From NCBI RefSeq assembly GCF_014699035.1, contig NZ_JACXAA010000008.1, forward strand, positions 62,001 through 126,000: a DNA stretch of 64,000 bases. The letters run 5' to 3'. Origin of the DNA: Spirosoma validum (GTDB taxonomy: Bacteria; Bacteroidota; Bacteroidia; Cytophagales; Spirosomataceae). The notes under the pieces were generated by a model. The model ran no database searches. It was not told where the DNA came from and saw only the letters and a list, made by a program, of their open reading frames with translations. Numbering within the stretch: the stretch's first letter is position 1; every line of letters begins with the position of its first letter. Both the position numbers and the translations under genes were made by a program. Below are positions 42,540-44,507 of the stretch, piece after piece.

Positions 42540-43751
42540 ATGAATATAGACTTATTTATAGCTTATCTGCAACATAAATGCGGTGACGACCTGTTCATGC
42601 TGGGTTTATACCAGTGTGTACTGGCTTTTTTAGTCGCCTGTTTTGTTTCAGTAGTTGCTATTCCTGTCGTTATTAAAATTTCCGAATTAAAATCGCTGAT
42701 GGAGAAACCCGGCGAGCGTCGGTCGCATACGACACCAACGCCAACATTCGGAGGTATTGCCATATTTGCGGCCATCCTGATTGCGTATTTTTTGTGGCCG
42801 AGCATTGACCAGACAGATATCTATCGTACGAACCTTTCCATTGTCGGAATGACCATCCTATTCTTCGTTGGTATTAAAGACGATCTGGTTGGCATCGACC
42901 CAACGAAAAAGATTTTGTTTCAGGTATTGGCCTCGATCATCCTGATTTTCTTTGGCGAACTCCGTGTAGATTATTTATACGGAATAATGGGGTTCCATCA
43001 CATTACCGAAGTCGTTAGTATTCTACTTACCTGCTTCATTTTCATTGCCCTGACTAATGCGATCAACCTTATCGACGGTATTGACGGGTTAGCCGGGGGA
43101 ATTGCGACGATCGCCAGTGGTACGTTTGGCGGTTGGTTTCTACTGACAAACCATTTTACCATGGCTTGTCTGGCGTTTACGCTATCGGGCGCGCTGATTG
43201 GCTTTTTACGGTTTAACTTTTCGAAAACCAGTAAAATATTCATGGGTAATACTGGTTCGCTGATTATTGGCTTTATGCTGGCATTCTTCGCTGTGCGATT
43301 CGTGAACCTTAATGCGTCGTATCGCTATGAACCAACAGCGTTTTTCAATGCGCCAATCGTTGCTATCGTGATTCTGATTGTTCCGATCTTCGATACATTA
43401 CGGGTATTCTTGGTACGTATTCTGGCCGGTCGTTCGCCTTTCTCGGCAGACCGAAACCATATGCACCATATTCTGCTGGATAACGGTCTATCGCACATAG
43501 GTGCTACAGCTGTGCTTTGTGGGGCGTCGTTGGTCAATACGATCATGTTTTTCCTGTTACACCGGAACATAACCAATACAGCATCCCTGATCATTTTAGG
43601 TTGTCTATTCGGACTATACATGTTTATCAGCTTCACGCTCAAGATGCGCGTCATGTACATGTCGACTCACCCACGCCTTCGTAAATCGATGCTGCACCGG
43701 GAGTGGAAGAACAGCGTAGCCGGTCGGCGCCGTATCGTCGATTATCTATAA
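42540..43751 (+). CDS. Undecaprenyl-phosphate N-acetylhexosamine 1-phosphate transferase (WecA/TagO-like)
   Basis: 403-residue polytopic enzyme that loads the first sugar phosphate onto the lipid carrier at the inner face of the membrane. MraY/WecA motifs in order: MEKPGERRSHTTPTPTFGG, KDDLVGIDPTKK, NAINLIDGIDGLAGG with the Asp pair, MGNTGSL, and SADRNHMHHILLDNGLSH. Eleven helices are expected. It closes the polysaccharide block and would initiate its repeat unit. A perfect 42-bp palindrome follows 13 bases later. The N-acetyl sugar is not known. Confidence 0.95.
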   Translation: MNIDLFIAYLQHKCGDDLFMLGLYQCVLAFLVACFVSVVAIPVVIKISELKSLMEKPGERRSHTTPTPTFGGIAIFAAILIAYFLWPSIDQTDIYRTNLSIVGMTILFFVGIKDDLVGIDPTKKILFQVLASIILIFFGELRVDYLYGIMGFHHITEVVSILLTCFIFIALTNAINLIDGIDGLAGGIATIASGTFGGWFLLTNHFTMACLAFTLSGALIGFLRFNFSKTSKIFMGNTGSLIIGFMLAFFAVRFVNLNASYRYEPTAFFNAPIVAIVILIVPIFDTLRVFLVRILAGRSPFSADRNHMHHILLDNGLSHIGATAVLCGASLVNTIMFFLLHRNITNTASLIILGCLFGLYMFISFTLKMRVMYMSTHPRLRKSMLHREWKNSVAGRRRIVDYL

Positions 43752-43764
43752 CATAATAATTACT

Positions 43765-43806
43765 ATGCAAAAAGCCCTCCGGAAATTTCCGGAGGGCTTT
43801 TTGCAT
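43765..43806. terminator. Perfect 42-bp palindromic terminator
   Basis: Arms of 21 bases (ATGCAAAAAGCCCTCCGGAAA and its exact complement) meet without a loop; the centre is at 43785/43786. With the stem A-run opposite a T-run it can end transcription on both strands: the WecA-like gene (plus) and the intron-bearing tRNA-Arg gene (minus), whose 3' end is six bases away. Confidence 0.9.
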
Positions 43807-43850
43807 TTAGGTGACCCCGAAGCGATTCGAACGCTTGACCGTCTGCTTAG

Positions 43851-44446
43851 CTTACCAACTACAGTTTTCGCTGCTATACGTACTACTGACGCACATTTGT
43901 GGTCTGGACTATGTCTTCACCCTATTCGCCACTCGGCGTACGTAGGTGGTTGCCGTTTAGTCTCTACACCTTCCCCATACAAGTAGAGGCTTGGCTCGGC
44001 GTTGTCATTAACCTAAGTCATCAAGATGAAGATTTGCACTAAATGTAAAATTCAGAAATCCATTGACAATTTCTATAAGTCCAAGACTCATAGTCAAGGG
44101 GTAATGTGTTATTGTAAAGCCTGTTTCAATCGAAAGGCTGTTCGCCGATGGATTGAGTGTAAACGACAGGCGATTTACTACAAAGGTAGCCAATGCGCAG
44201 ATTGTGGTTTACATCTTTCAAATACTCATTACTCCGTTTTTGAATTTCATCACTTAGAGCCATCCGAAAAAGATCATGATTGGACCAAACTTCGTCTAAA
44301 ATCATGGTCAGCTATCCAAACGGAACTAAATAAATGTATTTTACTTTGTGCTAATTGTCATCGAGTACGACATTCAAGATTAGAAGAGTTCGCCGAATTT
44401 GACAACATCCCATAAGCAGTTTCCTTACTTATGGCTCCTAACAATA
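43851..44446 (-). mobile_element. Group I intron (IC3-like) within tRNA-Arg
   Basis: 596 nt on the minus strand. The exon before it ends in U and the intron ends in G, as group I splicing needs. The core is recognisable: GCCGAGCCAAGCC (P3-P4 region), GGAAGGTGTAGAGACTA and AAACGGCAACC, with P7 formed by GACTA (43962-43958) and TAGTC (43911-43907). These resemble the cyanobacterial tRNA-Leu and other IC3 introns. P2 near the 5' end is CCATAAG/CTTATGG. The region between P2 and P3 is occupied by an HNH endonuclease gene on the opposite strand. Secondary structure of the P1 guide was not resolved by eye. Confidence 0.88.
44026..44415 (+). CDS. HNH homing endonuclease-like protein, antisense inside the intron
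   Basis: 129 residues. Two CxxC knuckles at C4/C7 and C30/C33 come first. The HNH part follows: CADC at 57-60, FEFHHLEP with H75 and H76, and CILLCANCHRVRH with C108, C111, H112 and H116. This zinc-ribbon plus HNH layout is typical of small phage and intron endonucleases. It is encoded on the plus strand, opposite to the intron RNA; its stop overlaps the P2 stem of the intron and its start is before the P3 region. No promoter box stands out. If active it would probably cut intronless tRNA-Arg alleles; that is inferred from position. Confidence 0.88.
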   Translation: MKICTKCKIQKSIDNFYKSKTHSQGVMCYCKACFNRKAVRRWIECKRQAIYYKGSQCADCGLHLSNTHYSVFEFHHLEPSEKDHDWTKLRLKSWSAIQTELNKCILLCANCHRVRHSRLEEFAEFDNIP

Positions 44447-44507
44447 AAGGCAGATGCTCTATCCAACTGAGCTACAGGGCCAACTTAGCTAACCCATTTG
44501 TAATTAT

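Follow-up and report, generated by a model that had tools for sequence, protein, structure and literature searches.

Among the mobile group I introns of bacteria are ones with sense homing genes, including introns inserted in a tRNA anticodon loop, with an endonuclease aimed at the anticodon region. Where homing genes lie antisense in nuclear rDNA introns, they encode His-Cys box enzymes. Synthetic home-and-rescue drives combine a nuclease with a protected copy of the target gene and are inserted into that target. An example of a nuclear rDNA group I intron with an antisense homing gene is Didymium S956-2, a type that, in the passages of the paper, interrupts eukaryotic rRNA genes and has no tRNA target (PMC3679873). 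Passages of two other papers describe freestanding phage endonucleases capable of intronless homing, including SegB of T4/T6 (PMC13096335, PMC3984707), and in the second, a 2014 review of bacterial group I introns, the words "antisense" and "opposite" are absent (PMC3984707). According to parts of a study on Kuravirus, it is unclear why only specific tRNAs are carried; phage YF01 has a single tRNA-Arg(TCT), and this lone tRNA and HNH genes are both mentioned, unconnected in those passages (PMC9965538). Searches of open-access papers, a scope outside which most subscription papers fall, turned up no description of a bacterial tRNA intron whose homing gene is antisense, or of an HNH cassette with a substitute tRNA.

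The locus described here lies in a 64,000 nt stretch of the Spirosoma validum genome, hereafter the window (contig NZ_JACXAA010000008.1, positions 62,001-126,000; 8.2 Mb genome, assembly in 39 contigs). It resembles the bacterial introns with sense genes in that a group I intron in a tRNA anticodon loop is combined with a putative homing endonuclease, but the enzyme here is of the HNH type, is encoded on the opposite strand within a tRNA-Arg(UCU) gene, and takes its C-terminal residues from the strand complementary to the ribozyme core. With the Didymium S956-2 type it shares a homing gene antisense to the ribozyme.

The tRNA-Arg(UCU) gene is on the minus strand and is split in two. Its 5′ exon (44447-44481) holds the acceptor strand, the D arm (GCTC..GGATAGAGC), the anticodon stem and C32, U33 and U34, while the 3′ exon (43812-43850) resumes with C35, U36, A37 and A38 and runs to a discriminator A. 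The two are separated by an intron of 596 nt (43851-44446) with G as last base, located between anticodon bases 34 and 35. Run without introns, ARAGORN reports no tRNA across the whole window; with introns allowed, it calls a tRNA-Arg(tct) whose 596-nt intron follows base 35. Full-length matches to the joined exons (74 of 74 bases, 95-97% identity) occur at 18 places in 17 genomes of the genus, G206 having two. All 17 uninterrupted loci of the genus are called tRNA-Arg(tct) by ARAGORN, with a junction reading CTGCCTT|CTAAGCAGAC, and an intact tRNA-Arg(tct) is present in each of the 30 loci fetched, 13 of which are of lower identity and mostly from other genera. ARAGORN, exon mapping and the uninterrupted alleles thus agree on the isotype, the insertion site and the intron length given in the initial annotation. 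An alternative junction giving GCU, and hence a tRNA-Ser(GCU), was rejected on account of the short variable loop and of the UCU anticodon in the uninterrupted alleles. The search of related genomes that the annotation had suggested turned up both kinds of allele: the gene is uninterrupted in the 17 genomes of the genus, so the intron is optional, and among the 222 family genomes it carries an intron in at least 5, three of them with the HNH gene, a count given as a lower bound because some ARAGORN labels are odd (e.g., L025, L294, L297, L299, L307, L309).

Besides the split gene, the genome has 40 tRNA matches, of which 30 could be typed, the arginine tRNAs among them having the anticodons ACG, CCG, CCU and UCG; the other ten are 82 to 90 bases long, that is, of class II length. 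No second tRNA-Arg(UCU) was found among the 30 typed matches, the ten long ones being untyped, and as the only such gene found in the genome, the split gene should therefore need splicing to work. Downstream of its 3′ end, before a convergent gene (42540-43751), lies a terminator-like 19-bp inverted repeat (43765-43806, minus strand). Since the repeat is symmetric, it may also stop read-through from the convergent gene toward the HNH gene, and it is perhaps a two-way terminator. Partial copies of the 3′ part of tRNA-Arg(UCU) occur in five genomes (G213, G185, G203, G194, G210), those of the first three sharing a contig with the full gene at a distance of some 12 to 63 kb, which suggests that integrative elements also use this tRNA gene as an attachment site.

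The initial annotation had claimed a group I core and proposed to fold it with a covariance model. A cmscan of the whole window bears this out: RF00028 matches the minus strand at 44457-43890 with 51.0 bits (E = 5e-10) against a gathering cut-off of 50, and is the sole match in the window to reach an Rfam gathering score. At the splice borders (CCTT|TATTG ... GGTAAG|CTAA) the 5′ exon ends in U and the intron in G. Seven introns at the tRNA-Arg(UCU) site were aligned with the protein gene removed, namely those of the window, Fibrisoma (L032), L039, L027 and L033-L035 (two Saprospiraceae and one unplaced Bacteroidetes MAG). The structure scored on this alignment comprises P1, P2, P3, P4, P7, P8 and two P9-region helices, as named by the analyst, with 42 pairs in total. 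Across the seven introns, 93.5% of its cells are paired and 20 of the 42 pairs have changed on both sides; none of 500 shuffles scored as high, and slid versions of the structure reached 29-42% paired. The group I core elements (P3, P4, P7 and P8, with a P3/P7 pseudoknot) are all present, P4 with 66% pairing overall, good in four rows and poor in three, where the alignment may be shifted. The arms of P7, GACTA (43958-43962) and TAGTC (43911-43907), are those already named in the initial annotation, and the fifth P7 pair is A-U, G-C or C-G depending on the intron. The P2 hairpin (CCATAAG/CTTATGG, 44410-44434), in which six of seven pairs have changed on both sides, holds the antisense stop codon. 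The 5′ strand of P3 (GTTGTC, 44401-44406; partner 43954-43949) is opposite the last HNH codons, and that of P4 (TCGGC, 44392-44396; partner GCCGA, 44000-43996) is opposite HNH codons near the C-terminus; all these helices are on the minus strand. With no other tRNA-Arg(UCU) found among the typed tRNA matches of the genome, the intron would be expected to splice itself out of the pre-tRNA.

The HNH gene occupies 44026-44415 on the plus strand and encodes 129 residues, with N-terminal CxxC..CxxC pairs followed by an HH..N..H motif. The protein matches PHROG 2255, "HNH endonuclease", with E = 2e-29; its match to Pfam HNH_2 is weak (E = 0.18), and NCBIfam gives none. Ten positions are invariant in 24 aligned homologues (C4, C7, C30, C33, C57, C60, H75, H76, N110 and H112). 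An AlphaFold2 model with a pLDDT of 91 places strands at residues 72-76 and 104-108 and a helix at 109-118, a strand-strand-helix arrangement at the motif. Foldseek matches to PDB are weak (best E = 0.04, TM about 0.3), and the top ten are all HNH-type nucleases or Cas9. The PHROG match, the invariant motif and the model together identify the motif and the ββα-metal fold of HNH enzymes, and the plus-strand HNH-type protein of 129 residues proposed from the sequence alone was correctly recognized. A chance open reading frame was considered and rejected in view of the homologues, the PHROG match and a dN/dS of 0.07 between the window and Fibrisoma L032 (0.08 between L033 and L035), dS being near saturation.

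Most of the HNH codons sit in the L5 loop. The C-terminal tail (RLEEFAEFDNIP-stop, 44377-44415, plus strand) is read from the antisense of P4, P3 and P2, and its stop codon (44413-44415) falls within the 3′ strand of P2 (44416-44410), just as had been noted at the outset. An intron without this open reading frame in G205, of the same genus, has a short loop where the HNH gene sits elsewhere, so that the gene behaves as a module, and at the position of the tail it keeps a latent frame, KEFADFDNIP-stop. A C-G to U-A change of P4, present in Fibrisoma L032 and in L039, coincides with Ala to Thr in the tail of the L032 protein, a small case of dual coding. No promoter-like site for the HNH gene was found on the plus strand by a scan that does not model Bacteroidota promoters. 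The orientation would uncouple HNH expression from tRNA transcription and may give rise to overlapping transcripts.

Six intron-borne homologues were found, in Spirosomataceae, Saprospiraceae and one unplaced Bacteroidetes MAG (the window, L032 from Fibrisoma montanum, genome G116, L039 from genome G115, L033, L034 and L035). Each of the six runs antisense to a tRNA-Arg(UCU) gene split at this one site, with both tRNA halves present and seven of seven acceptor pairs. For comparison, translations were made of 14 long introns that interrupt other tRNA genes, 12 of them from the family of the window. A sense HNH frame of more than 100 residues was found in 12 of the 14 (11 in the family, and L091 outside it), the HNH nature of the frames resting on homology or profile matches. 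The L005 intron has only a 79-residue sense fragment, and in L084 the HNH frame is in sense, yet longer antisense frames are present. The statement that an antisense gene is unusual for a bacterial tRNA intron therefore applies locally, as 11 of 12 family introns at other tRNAs have an HNH frame of more than 100 residues, all in sense. Introns of tRNA-Gln(CUG) in several genera (L002, L004, L006, L010, L018, L021, L091) have an HNH gene of another kind, in sense and situated upstream of the core that Rfam matches, and those of tRNA-Leu(UAA) (L026, L300, L304, L305, L311) carry another sense HNH type, PHROG 14736.

An Rfam survey of the family gave 54 group I matches in 43 of 222 genomes, with the loci of all matches fetched or covered by other loci, G037 excepted. 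The introns of L033-L035 were undetected by Rfam even at E = 0.1, so this survey undercounts. Homologues of the protein are rare, with profile matches at E = 1e-10 in 4 of 395 genomes across the phylum and 7 of 390 genomes of the order, several of them distant; a single-sequence search of the family at E = 1e-6 matched 9 of 222 genomes, three of them closely. The presumed mobility of the intron follows only from its own patchy occurrence among the 222 family genomes. A protein of 28% identity in a Yanofskybacteria MAG (L036) was rejected as a member of the same system, being distant and next to tRNA-Arg(TCG). In the genus of the window, a chromosomal array of 12 tRNA genes (L040 in G214, 440-2833) has a distant HNH gene inside it on the same strand. 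RF04351 (Plastid-psbl-rps4) scores antisense to tRNA-Ser genes at L032 3633-3684, L038 1204-1255 and L039 2071-2122, likely an artefact of that Rfam family.

The state of the gene at the tRNA-Arg(UCU) site varies: it is intact in the window and L032, decayed in L039, where Tyr stands at conserved Cys and His positions and the N-terminal frame is broken, reduced to apparent remnants in L027 as judged by eye, and without an open reading frame in G205. The decayed copy and the two introns without a frame would also fit a dead passenger in a vertically inherited intron. We regard this as most improbable, since the window copy has a dN/dS of 0.07 with its motif intact and the distribution is patchy. 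The gain, decay and loss that these states appear to record are the pattern expected of homing genes.

Further homologues were collected in a context table of 133 loci, 122 with an HMM match and 94 with distinct domain sequences, drawn from viral contig scans, eight of 316 matching phage records, one further phage record and the genome matches. The HMM was built from set A1, which already included five intron copies and the phage protein L046, and is thus biased toward high scores for that clade; adjacency to a tRNA did not enter the scoring. A line at 105.9 bits, drawn after the table had been inspected, separates 27 distinct proteins (six intron-borne and 21 others) from 67 below. All 21 close homologues outside introns, 20 viral and one bacterial, adjoin tRNA-Arg(UCU). 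A complete tRNA-Arg(UCU) lies within 60 bp in 20 of them; the contig of L269 breaks off after 59 nt of the tRNA, and on that ground this gene is included among the linked ones. In 19 of the 21 (18 plus L269) the gene is antisense to the adjoining tRNA, L074 and L281 being on the same strand. The initial annotation had named as counter-evidence the HNH gene occurring at unrelated loci without the intron and never antisense. The gene does occur without the intron, but next to the same tRNA gene and mostly antisense, and the antisense layout is a conserved trait of the lineage in both its intron and its phage form.

This linkage also bears on whether the protein is an ordinary freestanding HNH enzyme that hitchhikes, having as its target some other sequence near tRNA genes, as may be the case for endonucleases of tRNA arrays, with its place in the intron due to chance and its orientation meaningless. 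Distant homologues do adjoin many other tRNAs, mostly on the same strand, and the protein next below the line, the Felix O1 HNH (105.8 bits), which is 45% identical to that of the window, has no tRNA-Arg(UCU) close by; this protein is as identical as some linked ones, so that linkage is not a simple matter of identity. SegB of T6 is likewise linked to tRNA genes without isotype preference, in passages of PMC13096335. Against hitchhiking, all 27 distinct proteins above the line, placed as it was after inspection, are linked to tRNA-Arg(UCU), while 15 of the 67 below have a tRNA within 60 bp and three have tRNA-Arg(UCU), one of them (L078) looking like a truncated copy of the linked kind. We consider hitchhiking unlikely. 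SegB and the present proteins are alike as freestanding phage endonucleases tied to tRNA genes, but in the close clade tRNA-Arg(UCU) is the sole partner, and several phages have a native copy that is split and substituted.

In five phage loci (L072, L276, L272, L093, L106) native-type tRNA-Arg halves flank the cassette on both sides and form six or seven of seven acceptor pairs, the best chance half pairs in other loci forming two to four. Both native halves are also seen by eye in L075. Among the remaining homologues outside introns, six have the 5′ half only and nine have neither, including L269 at its contig end. A complete substitute is thus carried in 20 of 21 loci, with the disruption visible in five and, by eye, in a sixth. 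The direct pair of an occupied and an empty site is provided by Bas92 and LAMP. In the E. coli phage LAMP the tRNA-Arg(UCU) gene is intact, and at the same locus Bas92 has the 5′ half up to GGATAG, the antisense HNH gene, a complete divergent tRNA-Arg(UCU), GGATAG again, and the 3′ half. The Ptacy1479 locus resembles that of Bas92. E. coli is the recorded host of Bas92 and also of relatives that lack the cassette, Bas90 among them. As expected of a homing gene, the HNH gene interrupts its presumed target and empty alleles exist, both for the intron (the intronless alleles) and for the cassette (LAMP versus Bas92). Since the split genes with both halves visible keep their 5′ part to about GGATA and their 3′ part from about TTCTAAG, the break would lie between the D arm and the anticodon, near the intron site. 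At the same tRNA, Bas93 (L103 1136-1585) and O18-011 (L105 2143-2559) have a different HNH type, PHROG 14913 in Bas93. As judged by eye, this gene is in sense and preceded by the 5′ half, and behind it comes a further tRNA-like sequence, whose loop is TTCTAA. A different HNH type at the same locus, along with another tRNA that resembles a substitute, may mean that tRNA-Arg(UCU) is a homing hotspot in kuraviruses.

The substitute tRNAs differ from the native type in the D arm, the stems and the acceptor, with a nearly unchanged anticodon loop. The native D-arm pattern GCTCA..GGATAGAGC is found in E. coli argU (K-12: GCTCAGTTGGATAGAGC), in LAMP and in alleles of the genus of the window. None of the 19 substitutes beside the 18 scored antisense genes matches it; the tRNAs of the same-strand loci L074 and L281 also miss the pattern and keep GCTC. 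A resistance of the substitute to the nuclease through its D arm is a hypothesis only, because the native D stem is also missing from two of the three phage tRNA-Arg(UCU)s seen that are not linked to the gene.

The same D-arm difference could speak for a weapon, with the enzyme destroying the tRNA-Arg(UCU) gene of the host or of a rival phage and the divergent tRNA sustaining the carrier's translation, as argU is of the native type and the 19 substitutes are not. However, the difference is weak in view of the unlinked tRNAs, the cassette is flanked by native halves, the trace that homing or insertion leaves, and a host with the intron form would go unharmed; we find this explanation rather doubtful. 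Alternatively, the substitutes could have been selected to resist tRNA-cutting host defences, the HNH enzyme merely amplifying or moving them. In passages of two papers, phage tRNAs are proposed to evade defences via anticodon-loop changes (PMC10264068), and SegB amplifies tRNA-Tyr against Septu (PMC13096335). The nearly unchanged anticodon loop of the substitutes does not fit such a role, which also leaves the split native gene and the intron form unexplained and seems to us very unlikely.

The one close bacterial homologue outside introns is that of G827, from the same order but another family, where the HNH gene abuts a divergent tRNA-Arg(UCU) in antisense downstream of tRNA-Ser(GCU) and tRNA-Pro(UGG). 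In all 20 loci fetched from its genus, tRNA-Pro is by a native tRNA-Arg(tct), and 18 of them have tRNA-Ser in view. The divergent tRNA is the only tRNA-Arg(UCU) found in G827 (39 tRNA matches, 30 typed); no native one was found in this genome, the best native-type match (1.5e-8) being to another tRNA. G827 thus looks like a case in which the native tRNA gene was replaced by the cassette tRNA. In three other genomes of this genus (G938, G946, G949; 91-100% complete) there was no strong match to either the native or the G827-type tRNA-Arg(UCU). In a tree of 37 proteins, the six intron-borne proteins group with phage L046 and G827 (support 99/99), and 12 phage proteins form another clade (95/89). 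The intron label requires two changes on this tree, and the intron form may be of single origin. The ribozyme may have been gained by a cassette lineage or lost by an intron lineage.

The anatomy, the covariation, the conserved linkage and the occupied and empty sites are all directly observed. They are best explained, with a probability of roughly three in four, if the antisense HNH protein is a homing endonuclease that targets the tRNA-Arg(UCU) gene, with either self-splicing or a substitute tRNA rendering its insertions harmless. The HNH enzyme would cut an intronless native tRNA-Arg(UCU) gene between the D arm and the anticodon, and repair off the intron-bearing copy would insert the intron and the HNH gene together. 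The ribozyme would then excise the intron from the pre-tRNA, sparing the host. The HNH gene itself sits in the L5 loop as a module, with a reading frame that extends into the strand opposite the ribozyme core. In phages, this enzyme lineage would spare its target in another way, its cassette splitting the native tRNA-Arg(UCU) and bringing a complete, divergent one. Splicing, cutting, the cut position, homing, the resistance of the substitute and the direction of evolution are what we infer here from sequence comparison.

The locus represents a bacterial variant, and a conserved one, of the mobile group I intron; it also documents a protein tail that is encoded opposite a ribozyme core. The strongest new point is its connection with phage cassettes that resemble home-and-rescue elements of natural origin. 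Compared with the synthetic drives, these would be natural and prokaryotic, with a tRNA gene as both target and rescue. We put at about even odds a broader proposal, namely that a single tRNA-Arg(UCU)-specific lineage exists in two forms, the bacterial antisense intron and the phage break-and-substitute cassette, and that the phage form is a natural home-and-rescue drive that can replace the sole tRNA-Arg(UCU), as in G827, and may explain phages with a lone tRNA. If true, it would provide a natural case of the logic of synthetic drives, in which an essential gene is broken and a protected copy is brought along, and would show one nuclease lineage arriving at two solutions, a ribozyme or a substitute gene. 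It would also give a testable answer to why some phages carry exactly one tRNA, tRNA-Arg(UCU).
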